64,000 nt of DNA from Ricordea florida (lineage: Eukaryota; Cnidaria; Anthozoa; Corallimorpharia; Ricordeidae): assembly GCA_949710005.1 (NCBI GenBank), contig OX453276.1:8000877-8064876 (forward strand). The letters are read 5' to 3'. Positions within the stretch are counted from its first letter, which is position 1. Each line of letters opens with the position of its first letter. Positions 8,638 through 58,453 of the stretch are shown one piece after another. Both the position numbers and the translations under genes were made by a program. The notes beneath the pieces are model-generated. The model was not told the DNA's origin, did not search any database, and saw nothing but the letters and a program-made list of their open reading frames with translations.

Positions 8638-9261
8638 ATGGAAGAATTAAGAGATAAAATTCCTTTTCATTGTATTATAACTGGTCCAACAAATTGTGGA
8701 AAAACAAAGTACATAATTGATCAACTAAGAGGCCCATTTCGAAAATTGTTTGAATTCATTGTTCTAATATGCCCAACTTATTCTAAAAATAAAACATATC
8801 ATAATTTTGCCGTAGGAGATAAACGTTTCTTTGTATTATCACCGGATGCTAGTAACATTGATGAGATTAATGAGTTATTAACTTACTGTAAAACGTTATT
8901 TTCAGGAACAAATACACTAATAATTTTAGACGATTGCGCTGTATCCAATGATCTGAAGAAACGATCAAACAAGTTTATTGATTTAGCATTCTCTGGAAGG
9001 CATCATGGATTATCAATGTGGGTTCTCACTCAGCAATTAACATCGATAGCAAAACCATTCCGTGAAAATGTAGCTTGTGTTGTTACTTTCCACAATCCAT
9101 CACAAAAAGGTATGAAGATGTTTTTCGAAGATTATGGAGGTGATTTAGACCCTGAAACTAGTAAAAAATTTGTAGAACTACTAAAAAAAGAAAAATATTC
9201 TAGATTATGTTTATCTTTACGACACCCATTTAATTGCTATTTGGAGATCCCTTCGGGGTAG
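8638..9261 (+). CDS. A32-like (FtsK/HerA) DNA-packaging ATPase
   Basis: A 207-aa NTPase that would pump the genome into capsids. Walker A is GPTNCGKT at residues 16-23 and Walker B is LIILDDC at 94-100. The AFSGRHHGLSMWVLTQQ block fits the sensor region (Q) of A32-type ATPases. The stop lies in a 21-25 bp GC-rich hairpin insert (9249-9269) that changed the C-terminus: without it the frame would end like E2, in EIPEVI. It follows the capsid gene by 12 bp, so the two are probably co-transcribed. Confidence 0.92.
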   Translation: MEELRDKIPFHCIITGPTNCGKTKYIIDQLRGPFRKLFEFIVLICPTYSKNKTYHNFAVGDKRFFVLSPDASNIDEINELLTYCKTLFSGTNTLIILDDCAVSNDLKKRSNKFIDLAFSGRHHGLSMWVLTQQLTSIAKPFRENVACVVTFHNPSQKGMKMFFEDYGGDLDPETSKKFVELLKKEKYSRLCLSLRHPFNCYLEIPSG

Positions 9262-9269
9262 GCTCCGCC
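9249..9269. repeat. Double-hairpin insert in ATPase 3' end (E1)
   Basis: CCCTTCGGGG (stem CCC/GGG, TTCG loop) followed by GGCTCCGCC (stem GGC/GCC, TCC loop). The site is empty in E2, where GAGATACCTGAAG is continuous (about 53056-53068). The insert introduces the ATPase stop codon. Confidence 0.75.
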
Positions 9270-9316
9270 GTATTTCCTGAAACGATTTAAAAATAATCCA
9301 TGTATTATCACAAAAG

Positions 9317-9871
9317 ATGACAAGCGTAGAAGATTATATTGAAGAAGAAAAGAAAGATGTAAAAGATAATTATAATACCGAACGAAGAGAGGAACATGAA
9401 CTTGAGATAAAACAAGAATCACTAGCTATTCTCGCAGTTCTTGGAACCACAAAGGAATATTTGGGTGTCGATATGAGTCTTGGTGATATAAAAAAATTAT
9501 CGGTAAAAGACATTGAAAAATATTTTAATAGATATAAGGCAGTATTGGGTAAGAAAATTAATGGAGGGTTGTTAGATTCATCTCTACAATTAATTTCTAA
9601 AGTTATTTCTTACATTGTTCCTGTGGATGATATAGAATCTCTTTGTGTTGATTTGAAGAAAGATGATTTGGTTAATCGCGAACTGACAAACATTTTAGGG
9701 CTCTTAGCATTGAAAGCAGGAAGATTGGCAGCACTTGCTAGTGGGTTATTTCAGGTTGTTAAACATGTAAAATTCAACAAAATTCAACAAGTTACAAGTA
9801 CAACTGAGGATAAAATACAAGAGGTTTCAAGAACAAATACAGATAATGATAACACAACTGAATCGATTTAA
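9317..9871 (+). CDS. Conserved Polinton protein, unknown function (184 aa)
   Basis: I do not recognise a catalytic fold. After an acidic N-terminus (to about 35) it is helical, with LSVKDIEKYFNRYKAVLGKK, a hydrophobic segment around LISKVISYIVPVDD, and the conserved ELTNILGLLALKAGRLAALA near residues 120-145, which may form a membrane or core helix. The E2 copy (53083-53625) is about 75% identical. The C-terminus is variable. Position between the ATPase and small membrane proteins suggests a virion or assembly role (inference). Confidence 0.7.
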   Translation: MTSVEDYIEEEKKDVKDNYNTERREEHELEIKQESLAILAVLGTTKEYLGVDMSLGDIKKLSVKDIEKYFNRYKAVLGKKINGGLLDSSLQLISKVISYIVPVDDIESLCVDLKKDDLVNRELTNILGLLALKAGRLAALASGLFQVVKHVKFNKIQQVTSTTEDKIQEVSRTNTDNDNTTESI

Positions 9872-9896
9872 AGATTTCTTAATGATATGTAAAATT
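9865..9896 (+). promoter_or_regulatory. Late-class promoter motif
   Basis: GATTTAAAGATTTCTTAATG, then GATATGTAAAATT immediately before the ATG at 9897. The same layout recurs before at least five other structural genes, and supports 9897 rather than the upstream in-frame ATG at 9846. Confidence 0.55.
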
Positions 9897-10358
9897 ATGT
9901 CTGACCGAACTGAACAAAGTGAAGGAGGAACAGAAGTTGTTGAGCAAATTACAGCGGATCCGGTTGTTAAAGATAAAGAACCTAAAAAGAGAGAAAAAGA
10001 CCCTAAAAAGGTTGCAGCTGGTAAGAAATTAGCTGAATATAATAAAAAAGCAAAAGAAGCTTTAGCCAGGGAGAACCTACGGGCCGCGGAGCAGATGAAA
10101 CGTGAAAAGGAACAAGAGGATATTAAAAATGAAGAGAGTGAAGAAAAAGAAAATGGGAAAGCATGGCTTCCAGAACTATCTTTTACTACTGTTTTGTCTA
10201 TCGTTGGAATAGGGTTTACAGCATTTGATATTTTTATGAGATATCGGGGTGAATATAAAAATAGGATAGCAGATTTATCACAAGTACCAACACAACCCTT
10301 TGAAGCCCCTCCCATAAAGATTCATAATCCTCAACCACCAAAAATTAGAATGATATGA
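9897..10358 (+). CDS. Lys/Glu-rich single-pass membrane protein
   Basis: A 153-aa protein when started at 9897, which aligns with the E2 start (53663) and follows the late promoter motif. The highly charged N-terminal half includes KKVAAGKKLAEYNKKAKEAL, a basic helix that could bind DNA or the capsid. A transmembrane segment follows at about 95-115 (FTTVLSIVGIGFTAFDIFM), and then a proline-rich tail. It has a 21-bp in-frame insert (NLRAAEQ) that is absent in E2. Function unknown; a small virion membrane or core protein is plausible. Confidence 0.75.
   Translation: MSDRTEQSEGGTEVVEQITADPVVKDKEPKKREKDPKKVAAGKKLAEYNKKAKEALARENLRAAEQMKREKEQEDIKNEESEEKENGKAWLPELSFTTVLSIVGIGFTAFDIFMRYRGEYKNRIADLSQVPTQPFEAPPIKIHNPQPPKIRMI
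10074..10094. repeat. GC-rich hairpin-family insert in frame (E1)
   Basis: Twenty-one extra bases relative to E2 (53817-53823 is continuous) add NLRAAEQ. They contain CCTACGGGCCGCGGAGCA, an exact 18-nt match to 58254-58271 in E2, which lies in a different gene. An identical sequence at non-homologous sites implies movement or copying. Confidence 0.8.
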
Positions 10359-10390
10359 TTTAAAGGTTTCTTACTGATACAGTAAAAATT
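10357..10390 (+). promoter_or_regulatory. Late-class promoter motif
   Basis: GATTTAAAGGTTTCTTACTG followed by ATACAGTAAAAATT and the ATG at 10391. Conserved in E2 at 54121-54154. Confidence 0.55.
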
Positions 10391-10609
10391 ATGTCAACCG
10401 AAAACAAACTTGTGAAAACTGTTACTGATTCTGCAGTACTTATTGGGTTAGCAGCTGGAGTTGGATATGTAGCTAAAAAAGCAATGAGAGAATCATTTAT
10501 GAACGACCCATCCTCAAGTATTACAAATTATGCAAAATGGGTAGCTGTATTATCAGGTAGTATGTATCTAAAAACATATTTAGAGGATCAAAATATTTTA
10601 CCAAAATAA
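10391..10609 (+). CDS. Small two-pass membrane protein (72 aa)
   Basis: Two hydrophobic segments (about 13-29, SAVLIGLAAGVGYVAKK, and 46-60, AKWVAVLSGSMYLK) flank a conserved FMNDPSSSITNYAK loop. Near-identical in E2 (54155-54373), with 5-6 changes. No known fold. Its stop is followed after 2 bp by the next start, so the two are almost certainly on one transcript. Likely a virion membrane component (inference). Confidence 0.75.
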   Translation: MSTENKLVKTVTDSAVLIGLAAGVGYVAKKAMRESFMNDPSSSITNYAKWVAVLSGSMYLKTYLEDQNILPK

Positions 10610-10611
10610 TT

Positions 10612-11004
10612 ATGGCAACAATAGCAATGATGTTAGGGGGGGCTGTATTAAATGCAACTGCCTTTGTTGGTGGATCATATCTTGCAAAATATCTATCTGG
10701 AAATAAAACAGATACAGAAAAAATACGACACGATAAAGCATTAGAAAAATATCAAAAAGATTACGCTGAATATCAAGAAAATAGACAGAAACTAATTGAT
10801 TGGAAAATGAAACAAAAAGATGAAAAATATCAAGCATCAAAAAATCTTTCAAAAACTGATGAATCATTAGAATTGTATAGTCAAATACACGAACCAAAAT
10901 TTAGTGATTATTATAGACCTAGTAACAATCAAAAGATGGGTGAAATGGCATATGTTGGTGGAGGAATGTTGGCATTGGGGTATACAGCTAGTAAATTCTT
11001 TTAA
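10612..11004 (+). CDS. Small membrane protein with central coiled coil (130 aa)
   Basis: An N-terminal hydrophobic segment (3-28, glycine-rich) and a C-terminal one (114-128, AYVGGGMLALGYTASKF) are joined by a highly charged helix with TEKIRHDKALEKYQKDYAEY. About 85% identical to E2 54376-54768. Function unknown; conserved neighbour of the 72-aa protein. Confidence 0.75.
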   Translation: MATIAMMLGGAVLNATAFVGGSYLAKYLSGNKTDTEKIRHDKALEKYQKDYAEYQENRQKLIDWKMKQKDEKYQASKNLSKTDESLELYSQIHEPKFSDYYRPSNNQKMGEMAYVGGGMLALGYTASKFF

Positions 11005-11016
11005 AAAATTATTTTT

Positions 11017-11050
11017 GTTATGTAACCAGTAATTAGGTTATATAACATAA
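11017..11050. terminator. Bidirectional terminator-like hairpin
   Basis: GTTATGTAACC, a short loop, then GGTTATATAACATAA; an imperfect stem between the ends of convergent genes. The same sequence occurs at 16519-16552 and, with a perfect 11-bp stem, in E2 at 59217-59246, always between convergent genes. Confidence 0.6.
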
Positions 11051-11071
11051 TATTATTTCTTATTTAAGTTT

Positions 11072-11893
11072 TTACATAAGGCTTCCAGTATCTGAATCTT
11101 CGTCATTTTCCATAAAATTAGCAGCTGATTCGCTGTTAGAAATAATTACTTCTGTTTTACATTTACTTGGAATTAATCTTTTCATTTCAATTTTTGGTTC
11201 TACATTCGCTTCATAAAGTTTTACCTGAAGTGAAATACAAGAACCAATAAATATTGATTCAACTTTTATTACACATTCTGCGTGACATCCTTTATTCATT
11301 AAATCTAAAGGTTGTATTTCTTTATCATCCTTCATATTAAAAAATTTAGTGAGAAATTTATCTTTATAACAAATTAATTTTGCATATAGCGTTGGTCCTC
11401 GGTCAGGAACTCTACGCATAGACCTTTTACCATTTTCATCTGTTACTTTTTCCATTTTCCAATATAAAGGATTTAAACCACCCCTGGTTTTAGTAAGATC
11501 TTTTCTTTCCAAGTCAAATCTGTCAATTTTTTCTCTATTATCTACCAAATGATCAATACAACAATCTACTATTTCGTTAAAAGTATCAATCCATTTTTTC
11601 TCTTCGGGTGTGGGTTTATCTCCACTCCATAAACATAAAGGAAAGGTATGTCCTGTAATTTTTTTTGTTTCTTGGCTTAGATTTTCAGAAACTCCAAATG
11701 AATACAAACGTCCAGTTGGAATAACAAGTTCTCCTTCAGTTCCGTCTTTGTTTTTTGTAAAAATTTTAATTCTTTTAAATTCAATCTTTGGTTTGCTATT
11801 AGGGATTTGCCCTGAAATTGGTTTAGAAAAGATCATACGTTCTTTAGGAATATAATTGTTAATATTTATTAATTGTGTGTTTTCATTAGTCAT
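11072..11893 (-). CDS. Possible single-stranded-DNA-binding protein (E1 only)
   Basis: A 273-aa protein absent from E2. Not firmly recognised, but GRLYSFGVSENLSQETKKI, then PLCLWSGDKPTPEEK (about 62-100), recalls uncharacterised proteins of large DNA viruses that have been linked to T7-type single-strand-DNA-binding proteins. The acidic tail NFMENDEDSDTGSLM is typical of such SSBs (known for the family; its meaning here is inference). The gene is on the opposite strand, convergent with the 130-aa gene, and would serve replication alongside the E1-type polymerase. An alternative is an unrelated acquired host or viral gene. Confidence 0.6.
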   Translation of the reverse strand: MTNENTQLININNYIPKERMIFSKPISGQIPNSKPKIEFKRIKIFTKNKDGTEGELVIPTGRLYSFGVSENLSQETKKITGHTFPLCLWSGDKPTPEEKKWIDTFNEIVDCCIDHLVDNREKIDRFDLERKDLTKTRGGLNPLYWKMEKVTDENGKRSMRRVPDRGPTLYAKLICYKDKFLTKFFNMKDDKEIQPLDLMNKGCHAECVIKVESIFIGSCISLQVKLYEANVEPKIEMKRLIPSKCKTEVIISNSESAANFMENDEDSDTGSLM

Positions 11894-11905
11894 TTTATTT
11901 TTATT

Positions 11906-11930
11906 TGTTTTTTTTTTTTTTTTTTTTTTA
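11906..11930. repeat. Homopolymeric T tract
   Basis: A run of about 22 T separates the divergent 273-aa and coiled-coil genes; length is prone to assembly error. It makes the in-frame ATG at 11905 an implausible start. Confidence 0.8.
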
Positions 11931-11968
11931 TTTTTTAAATCAATTTTATATTTTCAAAATAACTTTAG

Positions 11969-12000
11969 GTCTAAAGATTTTCTTACTGATGAGTAAAATC
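11969..12000 (+). promoter_or_regulatory. Late-class promoter motif
   Basis: TCTAAAGATTTTCTTACTGA followed by TGAGTAAAATC and the ATG at 12001. E2 has the same motif (54789-54823) with TAAG in place of TGAG, so the ATG inside this motif at 11989 is unlikely to be the start. Confidence 0.55.
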
Positions 12001-13308
12001 ATGGAAGAATCAGAAAAAACTCCACTATTGAGTAGAGATGATAATGAGGATGATGAGGATGATGTAGAAGAGGTTGAAATGGGCCCAATATCATCAACAA
12101 CTAGGGTAATTAACCCTGATGATGATGGTGAAATGGAAAGTCCTCCTCCAGGAACCCCACCTGACCGTCGTCGAAATCCTCCTCCTGGCACCCCACCCAG
12201 AACCCGTATAGAAGAAACATCGTTTGGCGGTAGGGATTATGAGAGTGAGGGGGGAAGACCTAAATCACAAAAAACTATTGTTAGTGAACGTTTAAAAAAT
12301 AAAGATGAATCTGGAGATTATATTAAATCATTATTTCTTTATGCAGACACATCGCAGTTTTTTCATTGGTATGATGAGTATGGAGACTTAAAAGTAAAAT
12401 TGAAAAGGGGAAACGCAAAAACTTACTCATTATTTAAAGGAGATAAATTGAATAATGAACTTCCTGATACATTAAAAAAAGCTCTAGGTGTTGATTATGA
12501 AACCATTCTTAAAGAAAGAAATAATCTTTTATCACAAAAGGAGGAAGATAATAAAAAAATTACAGAAAGAGACAATGTAATAGCTGAGTTAAAACTCGAT
12601 TTAGAAACATTTGAAAAGGAATTGAGGGGATATTTTTCAAGTGAAACAAATGATAAAGAGAAGATTAGAATCATAGAACAACAACAAACAAAAATTGCGA
12701 AACTTGAAAGCTATTTAGACGCGTCTGATAAACATAAGATGTTAGCTAAATCACAGATTGATGAACTTAGAAGTAAATTAAATAAATACAAAGATGAACT
12801 TGAAAAAAATAAGAAGGGTCAGTCAAATTTAACAATGTTAGAACGCAGTAATGAAAGATTAAAAGCTGAGATTGATAAATTTAGAGAACTATCAAGAAAG
12901 AGTATTATTTACAACCAAGAACAAATAGCTGAGATTGAGAGCCAAAATGAAGAAATACTTAAAAATCTACCATTACGAGAAAGGATAAAGTATATATTCA
13001 AAAAGTATGGTTTTACAGTATTTGCAGTTGTGAGTGCTGTTGGTGTTGTTATTGGTGTTATAGTTTCTAATCTTTCTAGAGGCTTATCCACATTAGGAAA
13101 AGGTGTTGGAAATGGATTAAAAGCTCTTGGGAAGAAACTAGGTGAAATATTACCAGGGATGGTTGGTGCTATTGTAAGCTTTTTATTCAAAACCGCGGGT
13201 GAGGTTATTAGCTTTTTAGGTAAGAATGCTTGGTTGCTAATAATGGCTGTGGTTTTATATTTTGTGGACCGACTAAAAGGAGGAACAAGTGTAAAAAAGA
13301 GAAATTAA
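12001..13308 (+). CDS. Coiled-coil protein with C-terminal membrane segments
   Basis: A 435-aa protein from the ATG at 12001. N-terminus acidic, with a proline-rich direct repeat (PPPGTPPDRRRNPPPGTPP, about 42-60) missing in E2. There follows EETSFGGRDYE, conserved in E2, a long coiled coil (about 155-330), then two hydrophobic segments (YGFTVFAVVSAVGVVIGVIV and NAWLLIMAVVLYFV) separated by a glycine-rich amphipathic stretch, LGKGVGNGLKALGKKLGEIL, and a helix around GAIVSFLFKTAGEV. The C-terminal third is the most conserved part (about 85%). The architecture would suit a virion membrane or penetration factor (inference); no named family was recognised. Confidence 0.75.
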   Translation: MEESEKTPLLSRDDNEDDEDDVEEVEMGPISSTTRVINPDDDGEMESPPPGTPPDRRRNPPPGTPPRTRIEETSFGGRDYESEGGRPKSQKTIVSERLKNKDESGDYIKSLFLYADTSQFFHWYDEYGDLKVKLKRGNAKTYSLFKGDKLNNELPDTLKKALGVDYETILKERNNLLSQKEEDNKKITERDNVIAELKLDLETFEKELRGYFSSETNDKEKIRIIEQQQTKIAKLESYLDASDKHKMLAKSQIDELRSKLNKYKDELEKNKKGQSNLTMLERSNERLKAEIDKFRELSRKSIIYNQEQIAEIESQNEEILKNLPLRERIKYIFKKYGFTVFAVVSAVGVVIGVIVSNLSRGLSTLGKGVGNGLKALGKKLGEILPGMVGAIVSFLFKTAGEVISFLGKNAWLLIMAVVLYFVDRLKGGTSVKKRN

Positions 13309-13310
13309 CA

Positions 13311-13346
13311 AATTTAAAGATATCATGTTGATCAGTAAAATACAAT
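13311..13346 (+). promoter_or_regulatory. Late-class promoter motif
   Basis: AATTTAAAGATATCATGTTG followed by ATCAGTAAAATACAAT and the ATG at 13347; repeated in E2 at 56061-56096. Confidence 0.55.
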
Positions 13347-13943
13347 ATGGATGACTACAAGGGAATTTATCCGCAATTACCTATTGATGGTGATCCAAAT
13401 AATTTCAGACTACAAAAGTCCTGTGAAGTACTAAATAATCTTCAAAAGGAAATTAAACATTACGAGGATGTTAGGAAAAAGTATAATCGAGCTAGAGGAA
13501 TATTTACAAAAATAAGTGTTTGTAGTGGTATATTTTCAGTTATTCTATCTGCAAGTGGTCTCGGAACATCTCTTTCTGGTTTTGGCGCTGTTGTTGGTAT
13601 ACCATTAGGTGTTGTTGGTGGATTTTGTGGGGCGATATCGGTTGGATTCGGTTCTGCTTCTAAACGACTTTCCCATAAAGTTAGTAAACATGAACAGACA
13701 GTTTCTATCGCAAAAGCAAAAGTAAACACTATTAACGACTTGGTTTCAAAGGCATTGCAAGATAACACCATATCAGACCAAGAATTTTCTCTAATTTTAT
13801 CAGAGGTGGATAAGTTTGAAAAACTAAAAATGGAAATCCGCCAAAAAACCAGGAAAGATACAGAAAAAAACTTAAATATGAATCAGATAAGAACAGAGGT
13901 TCGAGAGGAAATATTAAAGGAATTGGTAAGTCGAGATCACTGA
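13347..13943 (+). CDS. Membrane protein with glycine-rich hairpin (198 aa)
   Basis: A conserved N-terminus (YPQLP then FRLQKSCEVL), a short coiled coil, two adjacent hydrophobic segments (about 51-75 and 78-98, GFGAVVGIPLGVVGGFCGAI), and a charged helical C-terminal half including SDQEFSLILSEVDKFEKL. About 88% identical to E2 (56097-56711); the last residues differ. No enzymatic motif is seen. The double glycine-rich membrane hairpin could be a pore or fusion-like element, but that is inference. Confidence 0.7.
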   Translation: MDDYKGIYPQLPIDGDPNNFRLQKSCEVLNNLQKEIKHYEDVRKKYNRARGIFTKISVCSGIFSVILSASGLGTSLSGFGAVVGIPLGVVGGFCGAISVGFGSASKRLSHKVSKHEQTVSIAKAKVNTINDLVSKALQDNTISDQEFSLILSEVDKFEKLKMEIRQKTRKDTEKNLNMNQIRTEVREEILKELVSRDH

Positions 13944-14010
13944 AAATTTCATATGAGAGAACTGATGTAGGATTTAATTGTTTTGCCGGTGTTAGGAAAG
14001 AGTTTATTTA

Positions 14011-14033
14011 AGCGTAGCTGGCCGGCGAAGCCG
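14011..14033. repeat. Double hairpin upstream of 520-aa gene (E1)
   Basis: AGCGTAGCT (stem AGC/GCT) then CGGCGAAGCCG (stem CGGC/GCCG, GAA loop). E2 has a double hairpin at the same position (56797-56824) but with different stem bases and TTC loops. Confidence 0.65.
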
Positions 14034-14062
14034 ATTTAAAAGCAACATGTTATGAACAAAAA

Positions 14063-15625
14063 ATGTCATTATTCAATGATTTCAAAAATAGGTACCCAAG
14101 TGCTAATCTTGATAAATTTACATTTGTGCCTGATTCGTATGGAGGATATATTAAGTGGAAATATAATGGTTTAACTGTAATGACAAATGATGATCCTACT
14201 GGAAAAACATGGACTGATGGCATATCACCTAATATGAAAAGACTTTTATGGAAAGATTTGGGGCTAAATGGCGAAGAATTTAGTTCATCCCTTCGGGGGC
14301 GCTCCGCGTCTTTTCCTGAAAGTTTAACATTAACAAATAGATCTTATCCAATACCAGCTGTTAATTTTGATGATTTTACAAGCGATATAACAAAAATGCT
14401 AACCGATCTAGATATATACGTTTCAAATACGAAGAAATTCACAGCAAAAATGCGTAATGTTTTTACCAATCAAGTAGTTACTTTCAAATTTGGAAAGCAG
14501 AGTAGAAAATGGTTGAATGCTCCTGATATGAATTATTGGCCTCAACAACTTAACTTTGCAGTTTGGTGTGCAACATCTGGTTGTGGGATAAGTCCTTTTG
14601 AAAGTCTAAATTATCCTAAAGTAGTAAATAGCTTTATTAAGTTTCATATATATTTCACAATAAGGAGAATATTATATGAATTGAAACTGCCTTTACCTGA
14701 TGAGCAACCTTTTATGATAAATAATAATCCTTTTAGTAGAGTTGCATATCAAAGATTGTGCGCTGAATTTGGGATTAGTAATAATTCCGATTTTAGATGG
14801 AAAGGAGGAAGAAATTGGGGATTGGGTGATATATTCCTTGATTATGGTTCAGGATATCATGGAAAAGGTGGTGGATATCAAAATGTACATATTGTAAGAA
14901 ATTATGATGTTGAAGCAGACCAATGGCCTGGTGAAGGAAATAAATTCGCTGATGAAGGTGGAAAGAAAGAAAAGGGTAATCTAATTTCATTTATACGTAA
15001 TGATGACTTTGCCGATTTCAAATATGCTTGGTTTATCCCTACAAGTGGACATGGGCTCACTAAAGCTGGACTTGGTAGATTAAATCGATCTGCTGAAGCT
15101 TTTGTATATTGTATATTAGGAGCACAAGTTAACACTAGAAACTCGATTTATGGTAATGGTGGTGGCGCAATAGAAACACAACAAGAATTCTTGGCTTTAT
15201 TTGAAAGTAGTGTGATTGAGAATGACATTTCTAGTTCTATCCAAAGGTATCAATTAGCTGTGGAAGAAGCGAAATTACGGCTTGATGTCGCTATTGCTCC
15301 TGGTGTGTGGTTGATGCCGAGTAATATGATAATCAATACTGAAAGCGTGACAGGTTTTAACAACAAACTTATGAAAGCGAGTAATGATATGAATTTTGGT
15401 GTGAATAATTCCCTAAACACTGAAACAAAAAAAGTTGGAATAAGTCATAACTTAGGATATTCAAAGGTAAAGTTACCTCATATTCTCCTGAAAGGTGGAA
15501 ATGAAACGAATAAAACCCCGCAGGAACTAAAACCCTCAATGAAACAGGACTCAACTCAACATGAAAATAATATATTAGCATTTATAATTCTAGCGGGTGG
15601 ATTAGCGTGGTATCTATTTCGGTAG
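14063..15625 (+). CDS. Conserved Polinton protein with C-terminal membrane anchor (520 aa)
   Basis: Unrecognised fold. A conserved N-terminus (DKFTFVPDSYGGYIKWK), a block QQLNFAVWCATSGCGISPFE (about 155-175) that seems to be a family signature, then IHIYFTIRRILYELKLPLP, FRWKGGRN and a long conserved stretch with HGLTKAGLGRLNRSAEAFVY. The C-terminus ends in a transmembrane helix (about 500-518) with only a few residues after it, so it is tail-anchored. A hairpin insert at 14286-14310 adds residues absent in E2. The size, invariance and anchor suggest a virion surface or internal-membrane protein (inference). Confidence 0.75.
   Translation: MSLFNDFKNRYPSANLDKFTFVPDSYGGYIKWKYNGLTVMTNDDPTGKTWTDGISPNMKRLLWKDLGLNGEEFSSSLRGRSASFPESLTLTNRSYPIPAVNFDDFTSDITKMLTDLDIYVSNTKKFTAKMRNVFTNQVVTFKFGKQSRKWLNAPDMNYWPQQLNFAVWCATSGCGISPFESLNYPKVVNSFIKFHIYFTIRRILYELKLPLPDEQPFMINNNPFSRVAYQRLCAEFGISNNSDFRWKGGRNWGLGDIFLDYGSGYHGKGGGYQNVHIVRNYDVEADQWPGEGNKFADEGGKKEKGNLISFIRNDDFADFKYAWFIPTSGHGLTKAGLGRLNRSAEAFVYCILGAQVNTRNSIYGNGGGAIETQQEFLALFESSVIENDISSSIQRYQLAVEEAKLRLDVAIAPGVWLMPSNMIINTESVTGFNNKLMKASNDMNFGVNNSLNTETKKVGISHNLGYSKVKLPHILLKGGNETNKTPQELKPSMKQDSTQHENNILAFIILAGGLAWYLFR
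14286..14310. repeat. Double-hairpin insert inside 520-aa gene (E1)
   Basis: CCCTTCGGGG (TTCG loop) then GGCGCTCCGCGTC (5-bp stem with one G-T pair, TCC loop). It encodes part of SSSLRGRSA, which E2 does not have at 57057-57080. Confidence 0.75.
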
Positions 15626-15868
15626 TTCATGAGTATTTCACGTGATTATGATTGTTTACAAATTAGTGTTCACGTGTAGAACAATAGATTGCATACTTTT
15701 GCGACATAGCAACAAGCAAAACGTAAAGTGGTTTTGAAATTGAAAAGTAGATTTTATGTTTACTTTTAAAAGGCTCGTTTCTAACGTCGCGCAGGAATGT
15801 GATTACGTCAATGCAAATTACAGCGCAGCTGGTTTAAAGATGAATATAAAGTAACCAAACAAAAAAAA
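15626..15868. other. E1 intergenic spacer before penton gene
   Basis: No ORF. Two TTCACGTG copies (about 15637 and 15669) and a TTTAAAGATGAATATAAAG block just before the next start; the E2 spacer is only 96 bp but keeps AAAGATGAATAT. Probably promoter. Confidence 0.5.
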
Positions 15869-16504: not shown

Positions 16505-16518
16505 ATTTAGCGTATTTT

Positions 16519-16552
16519 GTTATGTAACCATTATTTAGGTTATATAACATAA
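16519..16552. terminator. Bidirectional terminator-like hairpin
   Basis: Same sequence as 11017-11050 (GTTATGTAACC ... GGTTATATAACATAA), located between the convergent penton and 169-aa genes. Confidence 0.6.
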
Positions 16553-16566
16553 TTATATAAGATTAT

Positions 16567-17186: not shown

Positions 17187-17209
17187 ATTTAATACTTTTA
17201 TTTTATATA

Positions 17210-17645: not shown

Positions 17646-17667
17646 ATTTACTTTTTTTATTTTTATA

Positions 17668-51141: not shown

Positions 51142-51174
51142 TTAAAGATTAACCAAAGTATCTTATAAATCAAT
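51142..51174. promoter_or_regulatory. Bidirectional promoter, integrase/capsid (E2)
   Basis: 33 bp, one base different from E1 7333-7365. Confidence 0.6.
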
Positions 51175-52440: not shown

Positions 52441-52450
52441 ATAAAAAATC

Positions 52451-53026
52451 ATGGAAGAATTACGAGATAAAATTCCTTTTCATTGCATTATAACAGGTCC
52501 AACAAATTGTGGAAAAACAAAGTATATAATAGATAAACTCCGAGGGTCTTACCGAAAATTGTTTGAATTCATTGTTTTAATATGTCCAACCTATTCCAAA
52601 AATAAAACATATCATAATTTTGCCCTAGGGGATAAACATTTCTATAAATTGTCACCTGATGCAAGTAACATTGATGAGATTAATGAGTTATTAACTGATT
52701 GTCAAACTTTATTCTCTGGAACAAATACATTAATAATTTTAGATGATTGCGCTGTTTCTAATGATTTGAAGAAGCGATCAAACAAGTTTATAGATTTGGC
52801 ATTCTCCGGAAGACATCATGGATTATCAGTTTGGGTTCTCACCCAGCAATTAACATCCATAGCAAAACCATTTCGTGAAAATGTAGCTTGTGTTATTACT
52901 TTTCATAATCCATCGCAGAAAGGTATGAAAATGTTTTTTGAAGATTATGGCGGTGATTTGGATTATGAATTAGGTAAAAAGTTTGTTCAACTCCTGAAAA
53001 CTGAAAAATATTCTAGGTTATGTTGA
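52451..53026 (+). CDS. A32-like packaging ATPase, C-terminus truncated by stop
   Basis: 191 aa; Walker A GPTNCGKT (16-23) and Walker B LIILDDC intact. A TGA at 53024 follows KYSRLC, where E1 has TTA (Leu). In-frame codons continue as SLRHPFNCYLEIPEVI to a stop at about 53078, so a single substitution shortens the protein by about 17 residues. All known catalytic motifs precede the stop, so the effect is uncertain. Confidence 0.85.
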   Translation: MEELRDKIPFHCIITGPTNCGKTKYIIDKLRGSYRKLFEFIVLICPTYSKNKTYHNFALGDKHFYKLSPDASNIDEINELLTDCQTLFSGTNTLIILDDCAVSNDLKKRSNKFIDLAFSGRHHGLSVWVLTQQLTSIAKPFRENVACVITFHNPSQKGMKMFFEDYGGDLDYELGKKFVQLLKTEKYSRLC

Positions 53027-53082
53027 TCTTTACGCCATCCATTTAATTGCTATTTAGAGATACCTGAAGTGATTTAACAAAT

Positions 53083-53625
53083 ATGACAAACGTTGAAGAT
53101 TATATTGAAGAAAAAACTGAAGTAAAGACCGAGGTAAATGATAATGATGAACTTGAAATAAAACAAGAATCTCTCGCAATTCTTGCAGCGCTCGGAACAA
53201 CAAAGGAATATTTAGGGGTTGAAATGAGCTTGGGCGACATAAAAAAATTATCGGAACGCGATGTAGAAAAATATTTTAATCGATACCAAGCGGTAATGGG
53301 TAAGAAAATTAACGGTGGATTGGTAGATTCATCCATTCAATTAGTTTCCAAACTTATTTCATATTTAGTTCCTGTGGATGATATAGAAGCACTATGTGTT
53401 GATTTGAAGAATGATGATTTGGTTAATCGCGAACTAACAAACATTGTAGGTCTCTTAGCATTGAAAGCAGGAAGGTTGGCAGCACTTGCTAGCGGTCTAT
53501 TCCAGATTGTTAAGCACGTTAAATTCAACAAAAATCAACAATTTTCAAGAGAAGAAACAGTAAATTCTAACAAAACTGATCAGGAAACTAAGCAATCTAC
53601 TGAAGGTATTGATACAGTATATTAA
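53083..53625 (+). CDS. Conserved Polinton protein, unknown function (180 aa)
   Basis: Homologue of 9317-9871, with a shorter N-terminus and a different C-terminal tail after VKHVKFNKNQQ. The conserved core is LSERDVEKYFNRYQAVMGKK and LLALKAGRLAALASGLFQ. No fold recognised. Confidence 0.7.
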   Translation: MTNVEDYIEEKTEVKTEVNDNDELEIKQESLAILAALGTTKEYLGVEMSLGDIKKLSERDVEKYFNRYQAVMGKKINGGLVDSSIQLVSKLISYLVPVDDIEALCVDLKNDDLVNRELTNIVGLLALKAGRLAALASGLFQIVKHVKFNKNQQFSREETVNSNKTDQETKQSTEGIDTVY

Positions 53626-53662
53626 ACAGATCTAAAAACTTATTTGCAGCATCTAAATAACA

Positions 53663-54109
53663 ATGACTGAACAATCTGAAGTAGAAGTTGAACAAATTAC
53701 GGCGGATCCCGCACCTGAAAATAAAGATACTAAAAAGAGGGAGAAAGATCCAAAAAAGGTTGCGGCTGGAAAGAAATTAGCAGAATATAATAAAAAAGCA
53801 AAAGAAGCATTAGCTAGGGAGATGAAACGTGAAAGGGAACAAGCGGTGCAAAATGAAAATACAGAAAGAGAGTATAATCAAGAAAAGTCAAACAATGAAG
53901 CGAAATCATGGCTTCCAGAGTTATCTTTTACTACTGTTTTATCCGTTATTGGATTAGGGTTTACAGCATTTGATCTTTTTATGAGATATAAGGAAAAAGC
54001 TGGGGTTGAATATTCTAATAGGATAGCTGATTTATCACAAGTTCCACAATTACCACAACCCCCTAAAATTCCATTACATTTAACTCCAAAATCTTTAGGA
54101 ATGGAATAA
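53663..54109 (+). CDS. Lys/Glu-rich single-pass membrane protein
   Basis: 148 aa. KKREKDPKKVAAGKKLAEYN matches E1 exactly over most of its length, then the chain runs straight from LARE to MKRE, showing the empty site of the E1 hairpin insert. A transmembrane segment follows at about 93-113 (TTVLSVIGLGFTAFDLFM). Confidence 0.75.
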   Translation: MTEQSEVEVEQITADPAPENKDTKKREKDPKKVAAGKKLAEYNKKAKEALAREMKREREQAVQNENTEREYNQEKSNNEAKSWLPELSFTTVLSVIGLGFTAFDLFMRYKEKAGVEYSNRIADLSQVPQLPQPPKIPLHLTPKSLGME

Positions 54110-54120
54110 TCTCAAAAGTC

Positions 54121-54154
54121 ATCTAAAGATTTCTTAATGATACAGTAAAAAATT
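54121..54154 (+). promoter_or_regulatory. Late-class promoter motif
   Basis: ATCTAAAGATTTCTTAATGA followed by TACAGTAAAAAATT and the ATG at 54155. Confidence 0.55.
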
Positions 54155-54373
54155 ATGTCAACTGAAAACAAACTTGTGAAAACTGTTACTGATTCAGCTG
54201 TCCTTATTGGATTGGCAGCTGCTGTTGGTTATATATCTAAAAAGGTTATGAGAGAATCATTTATGAACGACCCATCCTCAAGTATTACAAATTATGCTAA
54301 ATGGGTGGCTGTATTGTCTGGTAGTATGTACCTAAAAACATATTTAGAGGATCAAAAGATTTTACCAAAATAA
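54155..54373 (+). CDS. Small two-pass membrane protein (72 aa)
   Basis: E2 counterpart of 10391-10609; FMNDPSSSITNYAKWVAVLS is identical between the two. The strongest conservation of the small proteins. Ends 2 bp before the next start. Confidence 0.75.
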   Translation: MSTENKLVKTVTDSAVLIGLAAAVGYISKKVMRESFMNDPSSSITNYAKWVAVLSGSMYLKTYLEDQKILPK

Positions 54374-54375
54374 TT

Positions 54376-54768
54376 ATGGCAACAATAGCAATGATGTTGG
54401 GAGGAGCTGTATTAAATGCAACCGCCTTTGTTGGTGGATCATATCTTGCAAAATATCTCTCAGGAGATAAAACGGATACAGAGAAAATAAGACACGATAA
54501 GGCATTAGAAAAATATCAAAAAGATTATGCAGAATATCAGGAAAATAGGCAAAAAGTAATTGATTGGGAAATGAAGAAAAAAGATGAAAATTATCAAGCA
54601 ACAAAAAATCTTTCAAAAACAGATGAAGCTTTAGAATTGTATGCTCAAATGCACGAACCAAAATTTGCAGATTATTATAGACCAAGCAAAAACCAAAAGA
54701 TGGGTGAAATGGTATATGTAGGCGGCGGTATGATGGCATTGGGGTATGCAGCTAGTAAATTTTTATAA
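54376..54768 (+). CDS. Small membrane protein with central coiled coil (130 aa)
   Basis: Homologue of 10612-11004. N-terminal hydrophobic segment, charged helix (TEKIRHDKALEKYQKDYAEY identical to E1), C-terminal hydrophobic segment. In E2 it is directly followed by the coiled-coil gene, without the E1 cassette. Confidence 0.75.
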   Translation: MATIAMMLGGAVLNATAFVGGSYLAKYLSGDKTDTEKIRHDKALEKYQKDYAEYQENRQKVIDWEMKKKDENYQATKNLSKTDEALELYAQMHEPKFADYYRPSKNQKMGEMVYVGGGMMALGYAASKFL

Positions 54769-54788
54769 TTTACAAACATAACTTTTTT

Positions 54789-54823
54789 GGTCTAAAAAGA
54801 TTTCTTACTGATAAGTAAAAATT
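54789..54823 (+). promoter_or_regulatory. Late-class promoter motif
   Basis: GTCTAAAAAGATTTCTTACT followed by GATAAGTAAAAATT and the ATG at 54824. Confidence 0.55.
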
Positions 54824-56038
54824 ATGGCAGAAGGAGGAGATATGTTTAAAGAAATACCAAACTTTGAACCAACTGATCTAGGCGATGATGATGGTGAAAA
54901 TATGGAAATGGATCCAATATCATTAACCACCCGTCTAATTAACCCTGATGATGATGAGGAAGAAGAAACTTCATTTGGCGGTAGGAATTACGAGAAGGAG
55001 GGTGCAAGACCTAAATTACCTAGTGATAAATATGATAATAGGATGGAATCTTTGCAATACATAAAAAGGTTATTTCCGGATTTCAACCCTTTGGATTCAC
55101 CATTTACAGCAGAATGGGATAAGGAGGGTAATTTGTTTGTTAAATTGAGTAATCAGATAAATGCTACAGAACATATATTGATTGATAAAGATGGAGTAAT
55201 AAAACTTGATAAGGTTGGTAAAACAATCATAAAAGCTCTAGGTGCTGATTATGAATCCATGCTTACAAAAAATAATAATCTTTTATCACAATTGAATGAA
55301 GCTAATGAACAAAATATGGAATTACTTAATGTAGTACAAGGATTGGAAGCAACCACAAAAGTATATCCTATGGAGATTAGTCGATATGAAGAAAAAGAAA
55401 AAGAACTACGGAAATTCGCTGAGAAACAACAAGTGGAAAAAACGGAAATTAAAAGTCTTTTTGATGCAACTGTTAAACAAAATATAGAATTAAAAATACA
55501 GAAAGAGAAACTTTTGAATGAAGTAAAATTATACAAAGATGAAATAGATAAGTATAAGAAGAAGCAGTCAAATTTAACAATGTTAGAACGCGGTAAAGAA
55601 AGATTACAAGCCGAAGTTGATAAATTTAAAGAACTAGCAAGAAAGAGTATTATTTTAAACCAAGAACAAATAGCTGATCTGGAGGGTAAAAATGAAGAAA
55701 TACTTAAAAATCTGCCATTACGGGAACGTGTGAAGAATATCTTCAAAAAATATGGTTTTACAGTATTCGCAGTTGTGATTGCTGTTGCTGCAGTAATTGG
55801 TGTAATAATTTCTAATCTTTCTAAAGGGTTAACCAGATTAGGTAAAGGTGTTGGTAATGGGTTTAAAGCTATTGGTAAAAAACTCGGTGAAATATTACCA
55901 GGGATGGTTGGAGCGATTGTAAGCTTTTTATTCAAAACAGCTGGTCAAGTTATTGGATTTTTAGGTGAGAATGCATGGTTGTTGATAATGGCGGTGGTTC
56001 TATATTTTGTGGAAAGTATAAAAAAGAAGAGAAAGTAG
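54824..56038 (+). CDS. Coiled-coil protein with C-terminal membrane segments
   Basis: 404 aa, the E2 homologue of 12001-13308. It lacks the PPPGTPP repeat. Coiled coil at about 135-300 is much diverged (about 45% by eye), while the membrane-associated C-terminus (FTVFAVVIAVAAVIGVII, KKLGEILPGMVGAIVSFLFK, WLLIMAVVLYFV) is highly conserved, so selection acts mainly on that part. Confidence 0.75.
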   Translation: MAEGGDMFKEIPNFEPTDLGDDDGENMEMDPISLTTRLINPDDDEEEETSFGGRNYEKEGARPKLPSDKYDNRMESLQYIKRLFPDFNPLDSPFTAEWDKEGNLFVKLSNQINATEHILIDKDGVIKLDKVGKTIIKALGADYESMLTKNNNLLSQLNEANEQNMELLNVVQGLEATTKVYPMEISRYEEKEKELRKFAEKQQVEKTEIKSLFDATVKQNIELKIQKEKLLNEVKLYKDEIDKYKKKQSNLTMLERGKERLQAEVDKFKELARKSIILNQEQIADLEGKNEEILKNLPLRERVKNIFKKYGFTVFAVVIAVAAVIGVIISNLSKGLTRLGKGVGNGFKAIGKKLGEILPGMVGAIVSFLFKTAGQVIGFLGENAWLLIMAVVLYFVESIKKKRK

Positions 56039-56040
56039 AT

Positions 56041-56051
56041 CTGCTTCGCGG
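56041..56051. repeat. Single GC-rich hairpin between genes (E2)
   Basis: CTGCTTCGCGG, 4-bp stem with one G-T pair and TTC loop, in a 14-20 bp segment absent in E1 (13309-13315). Confidence 0.55.
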
Positions 56052-56060
56052 CCTCAAACA

Positions 56061-56096
56061 GGTCTAAAGATATCACGGTGATCAGTAAAATACAAT
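56061..56096 (+). promoter_or_regulatory. Late-class promoter motif
   Basis: GGTCTAAAGATATCACGGTG followed by ATCAGTAAAATACAAT and the ATG at 56097. Confidence 0.55.
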
Positions 56097-56711
56097 ATGG
56101 ATGACTACAATAAAATTTATCCTCAACTACCTAATAATTCTGATCCAGTCAATTTCAGACTACAAAAGTCATGCGAAGTACTACAAAATCTTGAGAAGGA
56201 AATTAAACATTATGAGGAAGTTAGGAAAAAATACAATAGAGTAAGGGGAATTTTTACAAAAATCAGTGTTTGTAGTGGTGTGCTTTCAGTTATTCTATCT
56301 GCAAGTGGACTTGGAACTTCCCTTACTGGATTTGGTGCTGTTGTTGGTATTCCATTAGGAGCAGTGGGAGGTATTTGTGGTGGAATATCGGTTGGATTCG
56401 GTTCAGCTTCTAAACGACTTTCCAATAAAGTTAGTAAACATGAACAGACAGTTTCTCTAGCAAAAGCAAAAGTAAACACCATTCACGACTTGATTTCAAA
56501 GGCTCTAAAAGATAACGCAATCTCTGACCAAGAATTTTCTCTAATTTTATCAGAGGTGGATAAGTTTGAAAAACTAAAACTAGAAATCCGCCAAAAAACT
56601 CGAAAAGATACAGAAAAAAACTTAAATATGAATCAGATAAGAACAGAGGTTCGAGCGGAAATATTAAAGGAACTGACCGAAGGGATGGGAAGAGCAGCTC
56701 CCATACATTAA
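56097..56711 (+). CDS. Membrane protein with glycine-rich hairpin (204 aa)
   Basis: Homologue of 13347-13943, with FTKISVCSGVLSVILSASGL and GFGAVVGIPLGAVGGICGGI segments and the conserved SDQEFSLILSEVDKFEKL. The C-terminus differs (TEGMGRAAPIH), encoded by a GC-richer stretch that may be a hairpin relic. Confidence 0.7.
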   Translation: MDDYNKIYPQLPNNSDPVNFRLQKSCEVLQNLEKEIKHYEEVRKKYNRVRGIFTKISVCSGVLSVILSASGLGTSLTGFGAVVGIPLGAVGGICGGISVGFGSASKRLSNKVSKHEQTVSLAKAKVNTIHDLISKALKDNAISDQEFSLILSEVDKFEKLKLEIRQKTRKDTEKNLNMNQIRTEVRAEILKELTEGMGRAAPIH

Positions 56712-56796
56712 AAATTTCATATGAGAGAACTGATGTTGGTTGTAATTGTTTTGTGGGAATTAGAAGAGAGGTTAATTAACATTTTATTCTAGATCT

Positions 56797-56824
56797 TCCG
56801 CTTCGCGGAGGCCAGCTTCGCTGG
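56797..56824. repeat. Double hairpin upstream of 530-aa gene (E2)
   Basis: TCCGCTTCGCGGA (5-bp stem) then CCAGCTTCGCTGG (5-bp stem), TTC loops. The second hairpin is identical to the first one of 52172-52198. Confidence 0.8.
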
Positions 56825-56860
56825 TTTAAAGACCAGATTATCTGAAACACAAAGAATAAA

Positions 56861-58453
56861 ATGTTGTTAGACGATTTCAAAACCCGATATCCAAACGCCA
56901 ACCTTGATAAATTTACATTTGTGAATGATTCATATGGTGGATATATTAAATGGAAAGTTAATGGAACAACAGTTATGTCAAATGATGATCCTACTGGAAA
57001 AACATGGGTTGATGATCTTTCCACTAATTTGAAAACATTATTATGGGGAGATTTCGGCTTAGAAAAGAAACCTAAAGTTGGCTCGTTTCCAAATAGTTTA
57101 TCAATTACAAATCAATCCTATCCAATACCCGCTATTGAATTCAACGACTTTACAACTGATGTAACAAAAACGTTAACACTTCTAGATATATATGTTACAG
57201 ATAAAAAGAAATTCGTTGCTCCTATGAGAAACATATTTAAATCACAGGTTGTAACATTTAATTCCGCAAAGGAGTGCAAAAAATGGTTGAATAAACCAGA
57301 TTTTAATCATTGGCCACAACAACTTAACTTTGCGGTTTGGTGCGCAACATCTGGTTGTGGTATAAGTCTTTTTGAAAGTCTAAATTATCCCAAAGTAATT
57401 AGCAGTTTTATAAAGTTTCATATATATTTCACAATAAGGCGAATATTGTATGAATTAAAACTTCCCTTACCAGATGAAAAACCTTTTTCGATAAAAAATA
57501 ATCCATATAATAAAGTTGTATATAATAAATTGTGTGAAGAGTTTGGGATTAGTAATAATTCTGACTTTAGGTGGAAAGGTGGAAGAAATCATGGTTTGGG
57601 GGATCAATTTATTTATTACAGCTCAGGAGGAAATGAAAATTTATATATTGTAAGAAATTATGATCATGATGCAAATACTTGGCCTGGACAAAATAAATTT
57701 TCTGATGAGGGTTATAAGGATGGAGATGGAAATAAAATCTCGTTTATTAGAAATGATCTATTTAGTGATTTCAAATATGCTTGGTTTATCCCTATGGAAG
57801 GACATGGGCTCACCAAAGCGGGGCTTGGAAGATTAAATCGATCCGCTGAGGCTTTTGTTTACTGCATATTGGGAGCACAAGTTAATACAAGAAACCCAAT
57901 TTATGGTAACGGTGGTGGAGCAATAGAAACACAACAAGAATTCAAAGCCTTATTTGAGAGTAGTGTAATAGAAAATGATATTTCTAAATCTATTCAAAAT
58001 TACCAAAAATCTGTGCAGGAAACTAAATTACGGCTTGATTTGGCTGTTGCTCCGGGTGTTTGGTTAATGCCAAGTAATATGATCATAAACACGGAGAGCG
58101 TGGTTGGGTATAATAACAAACTCATGAAAGCCACTGAAGATATGAATTTTGGAGTAAATAATGCATTAAATGTTGAAACAAAAACAGTTGGAATAAGTCA
58201 CAGTTTAGGATCTTCAAAGTTAAAGTTACCTCATAGAACTGAAACGAAGAGACCCTACGGGCCGCGGAGCAAAAACCCGAAGGAACCAAAACCAGACTCG
58301 ATGAAACAGGAAATCCGCGGTACCAACTCCAGCTCCGCTGGGGAGGACTTCGTCCGATCCACCAAAAATAATATTGACTCAACGCAGCATGAAAAGAATA
58401 TATTAGCATTGACAGTTGTTGTGGGTGGATTAGCGTGGTTTCTATTTCGGTAG
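56861..58453 (+). CDS. Conserved Polinton protein with C-terminal membrane anchor (530 aa)
   Basis: Homologue of 14063-15625. Signature QQLNFAVWCATSGCGISLFE is conserved, as are FRWKGGRN and GHGLTKAGLGRLNRSAEAFV; the terminal membrane helix is near 512-528. It contains two hairpin-family inserts near the C-terminus (58253-58271 and 58329-58355) that lengthen a variable linker between the last conserved block and the membrane anchor. Function unknown. Confidence 0.75.
   Translation: MLLDDFKTRYPNANLDKFTFVNDSYGGYIKWKVNGTTVMSNDDPTGKTWVDDLSTNLKTLLWGDFGLEKKPKVGSFPNSLSITNQSYPIPAIEFNDFTTDVTKTLTLLDIYVTDKKKFVAPMRNIFKSQVVTFNSAKECKKWLNKPDFNHWPQQLNFAVWCATSGCGISLFESLNYPKVISSFIKFHIYFTIRRILYELKLPLPDEKPFSIKNNPYNKVVYNKLCEEFGISNNSDFRWKGGRNHGLGDQFIYYSSGGNENLYIVRNYDHDANTWPGQNKFSDEGYKDGDGNKISFIRNDLFSDFKYAWFIPMEGHGLTKAGLGRLNRSAEAFVYCILGAQVNTRNPIYGNGGGAIETQQEFKALFESSVIENDISKSIQNYQKSVQETKLRLDLAVAPGVWLMPSNMIINTESVVGYNNKLMKATEDMNFGVNNALNVETKTVGISHSLGSSKLKLPHRTETKRPYGPRSKNPKEPKPDSMKQEIRGTNSSSAGEDFVRSTKNNIDSTQHEKNILALTVVVGGLAWFLFR
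58253..58271. repeat. GC-rich hairpin-family insert (E2)
   Basis: CCCTACGGG (3-bp stem) followed by CCGCGG. Shares the 18-nt CCTACGGGCCGCGGAGCA with 10076-10093 in E1, in another gene. Confidence 0.8.
58329..58355. repeat. Double-hairpin insert (E2)
   Basis: CCAGCTCCGCTGG, spacer GGA, GGACTTCGTCC. Stem changes relative to 52172-52198 are compensated on both sides. It lies in a segment of about 63 bp that E1 lacks (near 15550). Confidence 0.85.

Follow-up and report, generated by a model that had tools for sequence, protein, structure and literature searches.

What brings short, GC-rich hairpins to scattered places inside two virus-like elements of the corallimorpharian Ricordea florida, and do these hairpins belong together? 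The stretch that raises the question (64,000 nucleotides of contig OX453276.1, positions 8,000,877 to 8,064,876; hereafter the window) carries two Polintons: E1 (1490..18365), with terminal inverted repeats (TIRs) of 243 bp (1490-1732 and 18123-18365, 100% complementary), and E2 (45240..61036), with TIRs of 615 bp (45240-45854 and 60422-61036). An earlier note on this DNA had named ten hairpin sites in both elements and proposed a hairpin family spreading among Polintons. All ten are present, and two further ones were found, at 15821-15831 (CAGC-GCA-GCTG) in E1 and at 50980-50988 (CAC-TTC-GTG) in E2. The hairpins are real, far above chance, genome-wide, and recent. They almost certainly represent a mobile family, since identical short sequences recur in Polinton genes at different places and in both orientations, and close copies lack them at many of these places. 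Very probably, the units constitute non-autonomous mobile DNA, comprising one or often two GC-rich mini-hairpins (~18-50 nt), which spreads in Polintons.

The window was scanned for hairpins with a C-G closing pair, a GNA triloop or its complement TNC, and a stem of at least 3 with at least 3 G/C, and the expectation was taken from 100 draws of a second-order Markov model. E1 holds 6 such hairpins (0.11 expected) and E2 holds 10 (0.20), compared to 1 (0.81) in the 27-kb host stretch between them and 0 (0.14) in the right flank. The remaining C-N3-G loops number 0 (1.7) in E1, 2 (2.35) in E2, 18 (8.2) in the host stretch, and 4 (1.2) in the right flank. The same excess is found in 29 capsid loci of the genome (L016-L044, 123 kb), fetched through capsid similarity and thus blind to hairpins, where 75 GNA/TNC hairpins face 1.9 expected. 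For stems of at least 4, these loci hold 54 GNA/TNC (1.0 expected), 37 ANA/TNT (2.5), and 7 other hairpins (7.4); because GNA and ANA alone are in excess, the loop rule reads R-N-A, with the remaining loops at chance. The ANA loops are likely decay products of GNA loops, whose G makes up a CpG with the closing C. At 50 listed places of the pattern CCAGCNNNGCTGG, loops counted by eye comprise 21 GNA/TNC, 16 ANA/TNT (AGA/TCT 10, AAA/TTT 6), and 13 others, five of them TTA/TAA. In the earlier description of the loops as TTC, TTCG, or TCC, TTCG is better read as TTC closed by C-G, the rule being C-GNA-G.

Two controls support this excess. Inserts of 15–90 nt between capsid loci with good flanks, selected blind to hairpins, comprise 73 different sequences from 94 cases; a GNA hairpin is present in 31 of these sequences, compared to 0.86 in shuffles (at most 4). 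In addition, when nine inserts were shuffled 20,000 times by letter, two GNA/TNC hairpins of equal stem lengths arose in 0 to 0.065% of the shuffles, as against 0 to 13% for two hairpins with any triloop. Folding energies cannot test the loop rule, because GNA and TNC loops carry the median-loop energy in both parameter sets. Triloops of the C-GNA-G type are exceptionally stable in single-stranded DNA. Extraordinarily stable mini-hairpins are described in PMC10527192 as heat-stable and nuclease-resistant.

The loop rule bears on the alternative that survives best, in which the units move through an RNA intermediate and reverse transcription, as is partly suspected for the yeast mitochondrial cluster GC42 (PMC4478555). 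A reverse-transcriptase gene (RVT_1) does lie in the host stretch of the window. However, no link between the units and a reverse-transcriptase element was seen, and the loop rule suggests DNA, which leaves this route unlikely.

The units of E1 are found both in and between genes. The ATPase gene carries at its 3' end a double-hairpin insert of 26 nt (CCC-TTC-GGG + GGC-TCC-GCC; 9248..9273, plus strand), which contributes the stop codon (9259-9261); the insert is missing in E2, which shows a 26-nt gap, and in L065, where 27/30 flank letters agree (shuffle P 0.00005). Gene g6 (9846-10358) holds a 21-nt in-frame insert, missing in E2, with CC-TAC-GG + GC-GGA-GC (10072..10092, plus strand). Between g9 and the minor capsid gene stands AGC-GTA-GCT + CGGC-GAA-GCCG (14011..14033, plus strand), and CCC-TTC-GGG + CGC-TCC-GCG (14287..14310, plus strand) is inserted in frame near the N-terminus of the minor capsid protein. 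For the latter, the comparison of E1 and E2 is messy, and the own-genome copy L074 reveals a clean 24-nt insert with 30/30 flank letters. A single hairpin, CCAGC-TGC-GCTG(t) (15820..15832, minus strand), lies upstream of g11 and is missing in E2.

In E2, the integrase gene has received two units. The first is a 27-nt in-frame insert (50978..51004, minus strand), missing in E1 (27-nt gap) and in L017, whose remaining hairpin on the coding strand is CAC-GAA-GTG, with a decayed partner; the equivalent place of L032 holds the double hairpin CGGGC-GAA-GCCC TCC CAC-GAA-GTG. The second, CCGCTC-GAA-GAGCGG + TCGGGC-TTC-GCCCGA (51073..51109, not assigned to a strand), lies in the N-terminal part of the gene, corresponds to a 37-nt gap in E1, belongs to a 48-nt difference from L030, and has variants in relatives. 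A hypervariable stretch of the major capsid protein contains, in frame, CCAGC-TTC-GCTGG GGA GAGC-TTC-GCTC (52170..52200, plus strand), within a 30-nt difference from L030 (27/30 flank letters). Directly past the stop codon of g8 there is a single GC-TTC-GC hairpin (56039..56056, plus strand; 20-nt gap in E1), while TCCGC-TTC-GCGGA GG CCAGC-TTC-GCTGG (56795..56825, plus strand) is placed between g9 and the minor capsid gene. Finally, the C-terminal tail of the minor capsid protein holds two in-frame units on the plus strand: CCC-TAC-GGG + GC-GGA-GC (58250..58271; 21-nt gap in E1), which recurs in L048 inside a 36-nt difference from L051, and CCAGC-TCC-GCTGG GGA GGAC-TTC-GTCC (58326..58358), inside a larger, 66-nt gap of E1. 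In total, with stems of at least 2, the 12 sites hold 21 hairpins with 15 different stems, 15 reading TNC and 6 GNA on the plus strand. One of the ten GNA/TNC hairpins counted in E2, at 50207 in the integrase gene, is not part of an insert and may be due to chance.

The claim that most sites are clean and empty in the sister element stands for the gaps at 9248, 10072, 51075, 58249, 56037, and 50978, but not for 52172, which belongs to the hypervariable capsid loop, nor for 14011 and 56797, which are the same homologous intergenic place, occupied by different sequences in E1 and E2. The reported identity of an 18-mer, CCTACGGGCCGCGGAGCA, at 10076 (E1) and 58254 (E2) is exact (0.01 matches expected, allowing up to 3 mismatches), and the CCAGC plan, noted before for two copies, recurs at 52172, 56812, and 58329, and once more on the minus strand at 15820-15832, where the loop is TGC and 2 letters mismatch (4 found, 0.41 expected).

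The location of these sites also argues on the question of whether the hairpins could be RNA signals of the Polintons, such as transcript ends or processing sites, retained by selection. The four intergenic units (14011, 15821, 56041, and 56797) lie between a stop codon and the TTTAAAG-like motif of the next gene, the gap between g9 and the minor capsid gene holds a unit in both elements, and giant viruses are said to use hairpins in transcription (Byrne 2009, as cited in PMC5799277). On the other hand, 7 of the 12 window sites are within coding frames, loops occur in both orientations, and many sites are empty in close copies. Viral transcript-end hairpins would stand at gene 3' ends and in one orientation, a distribution that the units do not show, and a role as RNA signals is therefore very unlikely. 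The motif itself, TTTAAAG or TCTAAAG, is present directly upstream of several genes in both elements (7332, 13313, 15833, 51141, 56063, and 56825), and resembles a shared promoter motif.

The copies elsewhere in the genome extend this picture. The 17-mer CCAGCTYCGCTGGGGAG, with Y at one position, which belongs to the unit at 58326, occurs 176 times (88+88) in the own genome, and the 17-mer CCTACGGGCCGCGGAGC, from the unit at 10072, occurs 182 times (94+88), with 0+0 for the reversed-pattern control in both cases. Flanks were positioned separately, left and right, on E1 and E2. Among the first 30 listed places of CCAGCTYCGCTGGGGAG, 28 are in or beside Polinton genes, as are in Polintons all 20 places of CCTACGGGCCGCGGAGC hand-picked from 100 listed; together, 48 of the 50 places read are in Polintons, in agreement with the proposed spread among these elements. 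CCAGCTYCGCTGGGGAG most commonly stands, with its unit on the minus strand, where the capsid gene has its 3' end (~E1 8604-8612). It is also found at the g8 end (E1 ~13295-13327, plus strand, but inverted at 13305 in L047), in the minor capsid tail, in the integrase N-terminus, and, on the minus strand, both in the gap between g9 and the minor capsid gene and in g6 (L055); L056 has a copy in a Polinton at an unmapped position, and the window copy at 52172 adds the capsid loop. As for CCTACGGGCCGCGGAGC, it is found at several positions of g6 (near E1 9940-9977, 10069-10100, 10084-10115, and 10097-10140), whose distinct number is uncertain in this indel-rich gene, and also at the g8 end, and the window adds the minor capsid tail. 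Overall, the 17-mers occupy at least six gene regions in both orientations, their flanks mapping to different genes in both directions, as expected from the suspected insertion in either orientation. It had been argued that finding the same hairpins at homologous sites in most relatives would speak against a mobile family. Many copies do share a unit by descent, be it in the capsid loop, at the 3' end of the capsid gene, at the g8 end, in g6, or in the integrase N-terminus, yet non-homologous places share units as well.

These places are also the test of a second, equally improbable alternative, according to which the units belong to a repeat of the host genome that inserts at any place, Polintons being just one target. 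The pattern CCAGCNNNGCTGG is found at 789 places in the own genome (control 38), with contexts read for a minority, and the loci L062 and L071 carry the CCAGC 17-mer in another repeat. Contrary to this idea, 48/50 places read are in Polintons, and the host stretch of the window holds 1 GNA hairpin against 0.8 expected. The non-Polinton repeat of L062 and L071 has the common flank GTCTTGTCCGAT...ATAGGTGAGGCCCTATAGATTGT, and no open reading frame (ORF) of at least 80 aa was found in L062.

The comparison of filled and empty sites among own-genome copies, previously suggested as a check, was possible for 69 of the 144 units sought, the 75 unpaired ones being dropped, and yielded 59 different site-insert combinations. 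Insert lengths range from 18 to 56 nt, mostly 24–33, and 44 of the 59 are divisible by 3. Several pairs with 30/30 flank letters come from copies of 0.99-1.00 identity (L034/L040, L023/L035, L029/L023, and L026/L042), so that gain or loss went on until recently. Judged by eye, two plans are common among the units, one in which both loops are alike (stem-TNC-stem, GGA, stem-TNC-stem, GAT) and another one in which they are opposed (ATC, stem-GNA-stem, GGCC, stem-TNC-stem, GAT). At 11 of the 49 site keys the insert has the ends ATC...GAT, compared to 1.3 in shuffles (at most 5), and these ends could add a short outer stem. Around the CCTACGGG unit, agac precedes in 20/20 places (gagac in 18), and A follows in 20/20 (AA in 18).

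The capsid loop illustrates how the units vary and merge. Of the 64 rows compared there, 29 hold the GGGGAGAG unit, whose first 5-bp stem is, by eye, perfect in 24, while two rows have a G-T pair in between and three are broken; the perfect stems read CCAGC/GCTGG in 5 rows (L015 and E2 being the same place) and CCGGC/GCCGG in 19. The stems thus vary in matched pairs, in line with the compensatory changes noted earlier. This loop contains a second hairpin in L084 and L085, reading CCGACC-GAA-GGTCGG in L085, and in L018 and L029 a unit is nested within an older CGGC-TCC-GCCG hairpin, at the loop edge to within 2 nt. Some inserts of L022, L031, L032, L040, and L079 additionally hold hairpins of another type (for example, GGTC-TTTA-GACC or GTC-TAAA-GAC).

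At the junctions, insert and flank overlap by 1.69 nt on average (49 site keys), compared to 0.78 in a null in which inserts were exchanged among sites, and none of the 2000 null draws was as high; the overlap length is not fixed (0-8). In L091, an inverted copy of the 30-nt capsid-loop unit (with TTT as second loop) is found close to where the capsid gene ends, whereas the capsid loop of L091 does not have this unit. After the inverted unit comes TGGTCAGTA, which is native to that place, as L022 shows, and likewise to the capsid gene of some copies (L044). This arrangement fits copying from another element with a template switch at microhomology. The weakest alternative, in which palindromes form anew at each place through polymerase snap-back or Pol theta-like end joining, with no family at all, is scarcely credible: despite the junction overlap and the published synthesis of stem-loops by Pol theta (PMC11292364), it is contradicted as a full account by two 17-mers that recur unchanged, in 176 and 182 copies, at places several of which are not homologous, and also by GC-rich stems in AT-rich flanks, although it could still create new founders.

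A mobile hairpin family calls for a mode of spread. Polintons replicate with a protein-primed polymerase and strand displacement, which exposes single strands. Copy-and-paste spread while Polinton DNA is being copied is probable; a step via a single-stranded hairpin and microhomology is a more tentative proposal, somewhat short of even chances. Under this model, the displaced strand would fold into C-GNA-G mini-hairpins, which would block or redirect the polymerase, or persist as nuclease-resistant ends. The strand bearing the unit would then pair with a new place through a few nucleotides of microhomology and be copied in, and selection would purge the copies that break frames or folded protein parts, leaving the remainder in tails, variable stretches, and intergenic gaps. 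The units within window genes are in frame, even inside the capsid and integrase genes, which they do not break. In the predicted capsid structure, which is poor (mean predicted local distance difference test, pLDDT, 53.5; predicted template modelling score, pTM, 0.40), the insert falls in the low-confidence region 306-354, with no predicted strand or helix at 328-346, a position that fits a loop without proving it. The boldest extension, for which the odds are rather against, would regard the units as third-level parasites: gene-less DNA replicators of <50 nt within Polintons, defined by a single-strand fold (C-GNA-G) instead of a sequence, which multiply by template switching in protein-primed replication, and whose in-frame inserts rebuild capsid loops and protein tails.

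Several observations weigh against the interpretation as a mobile, loop-defined family. With stems of 3 included, the 29 capsid loci hold 68 hairpins with other loops (18.3 expected), a number that includes ANA loops and places common to many copies. Among the hairpin-blind insertions, 42/73 are without a GNA hairpin; 20 of them hold a C-N3-G hairpin with another loop (read as ANA/TNT save one CTC) and 22 hold none. The folding expected of the units is strong for long ones, but several short ones fold no better than shuffles. PMC10527192 backs extraordinarily stable mini-hairpins in general, rather than the extra stability of C-GNA-G loops. Copy number is not event number, because copies that share a place often owe their unit to descent; likewise, some of the 49 site keys are near-duplicates, so that true events are fewer. 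A short target-site duplication could also account for the junction overlap. The confinement to Polintons that had been predicted is nearly, but not fully, observed, with 2/50 places (L062 and L071) in another repeat. Taken together, the sequences support mobility well, and the mechanism is inferred from them.

To the same side belong the peptide tests on relatives, whose results are mixed. In proteins of other public assemblies, SSSAGEGPAR, at the C-terminus of integrase P0245, resembles SSSAGEDFVR of the E2 minor capsid tail and SSFAGESFAR of the E2 capsid loop, and further similar peptides are RPEGGSGFAD in P0247 and NRAKPSHEV in P0241, P0242, and P0247, the latter being encoded, at a homologous place, by the double hairpin of L032 described above. 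Insert 6-mers gave 9 matches to relatives (0.2 in shuffles), of which 6 are at the homologous site; two others (P0191 and P0297) fall where the sequences can be aligned, which leaves SSSAGE in P0245 as the single match at a non-homologous insert. The pairing rule on the inserts of relatives, applied to sites chosen after looking, gave 4/7 for x-F-y (p 0.0006), 6/24 for x-E-y (p 0.003), and 5/43 for x-S-y (p 0.27), and back-translation of insert peptides had little power.

Searches of other DNA added one distant element. Viral contigs gave no relative with the capsid protein or with the capsid, integrase, and minor capsid alignments, nor did the scan of genome contigs with the capsid alignment. 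The integrase alignment retrieved from the genome contigs one distant Polinton fragment, L009 (GC 0.49), with no excess of hairpins (2 GNA and 4 others). The L009 record is titled as an Oligoflexia metagenome-assembled genome (MAG), and is probably eukaryotic contamination. The viral contigs matched CCAGCTYCGCTGGGGAG 8 times and the other 17-mer once, in a contig of 70% GC, but not the long pattern; these matches were taken as chance.

The closest known systems are the GC clusters of yeast mitochondria (GC42, GC18, and relatives), described in PMC4478555 as palindromic, optional, and merging units of 18–42 nt, GC-rich in an AT-rich genome. The likeness comprises size, GC-rich hairpins, optional sites, and merging, and extends to a loop, since 403 yeast cluster sequences begin with the 13-mer ACTCCTTCGGGGT, with TTC between C and G (PMC4478555). 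However, yeast clusters have fixed AG or ACT direct repeats at their ends, whereas here the overlap is variable and no fixed motif was seen; their loops vary more than their stems, while here loops are mostly GNA/ANA and stems co-vary; and they are mitochondrial and mostly intergenic, unlike the present units, which are nuclear, in virus-like elements, and often within genes. Thus, of the traits that define GC clusters and double-hairpin elements, the units share the short GC-rich build of one or two hairpins, the optional presence at homologous sites, and the merger or nesting, but neither the fixed direct repeat at both ends nor the organelle location. Because place, ends, and constraint differ, they work, by analogy, like these organelle elements without being members of their families. 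No Rfam covariance model matched the window at gathering scores.

Other comparisons are looser. Rickettsia palindromic elements are likewise selfish palindromes inserted in frame inside protein genes, but they are bacterial and longer (~100-150 bp). Miniature inverted-repeat transposable elements (MITEs) have TIRs, a fixed target duplication, and a partner transposase. None of these was seen here: the overlap is not fixed, the ATC...GAT ends are a weak likeness only, and no transposase search was made. A MITE that is a small non-autonomous passenger of a DNA virus is Submariner in Pandoravirus (PMC5799277, PMC4495683). The mitochondrial double-hairpin elements of Allomyces and Schizosaccharomyces, potentially mobile, also have two adjacent GC-rich hairpins, but they are organellar, those of fission yeasts being intergenic or in rRNA genes, and the likeness considered here is one of build (PMC10085805). 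Similarly, the repetitive hairpin-forming elements of sponge mitochondria include hairpins and double hairpins with recurrent invasions, sometimes in genes, although they are structurally diverse and mostly between genes (PMC2800124).

Knowledge of mobile hairpin clusters in organelle DNA goes back to 1976 (as cited in PMC4478555), and the same source wants more evidence on how GC clusters multiply. The searches made, of open-licence PMC papers, turned up no account of such units in Polintons, in other viruses, or in nuclear DNA. The units look like parasites that themselves live on a parasite, a kind for which organelle genomes provide known examples. The present system is nuclear and young, and it offers hundreds of identical units, many filled/empty pairs, and a capsid gene in at least 99 copies, so that the junction chemistry, donor, target, and age can be read from the sequence. 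Moreover, the loop rule suggests that selection acts on single-stranded DNA in its folded form, and in-frame units in the capsid loop, the integrase N-terminus, and the minor capsid tail indicate a route by which viral proteins gain segments.

Each of the Polintons E1 and E2 encodes an rve integrase, an A32-like ATPase (Pox_A32), and a protein with a weak Capsid_N match, and they align over 4.7 kb at 87% and 5.1 kb at 82% identity (gaps excluded). The assembly that contains the window has 538 Mb in 48 contigs (the window being in contig C5), with at least 99 copies of the major capsid gene (E2 capsid protein as query; 90–100% identity, 97/99 without internal stop) and at least 81 copies of the minor capsid gene (minor capsid protein as query; 82–100% identity, 78 without stop), both counts being lower bounds, as scoring was limited to the best candidates. 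Judged by these sequences, the Polinton family of this genome is very young and intact. The TIRs of E2 contain internal sub-repeats, with several overlapping arm pairs of 62–117 nt.

Neither polymerase gene (1719-6314 and 45854-50122) holds a GNA hairpin, even though each makes up more than a quarter of its element. The E2 polymerase protein (45854-50119) has a weak match to Endonuclease VII, slightly below cutoff. Endonuclease VII is a nuclease of branched DNA, and this sub-cutoff match may mark a candidate for a part in the spread of the units. The DNA that separates both elements encodes, next to the reverse transcriptase, a DDE_Tnp_1_7 (PF13843) transposase, which we take to be of the piggyBac type. 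In the same host segment, an ORF on the minus strand (34563-35093) contains the sequence DVETNPGP, presumably a 2A-like motif, together with a weak Herpes_teg_N match under cutoff.

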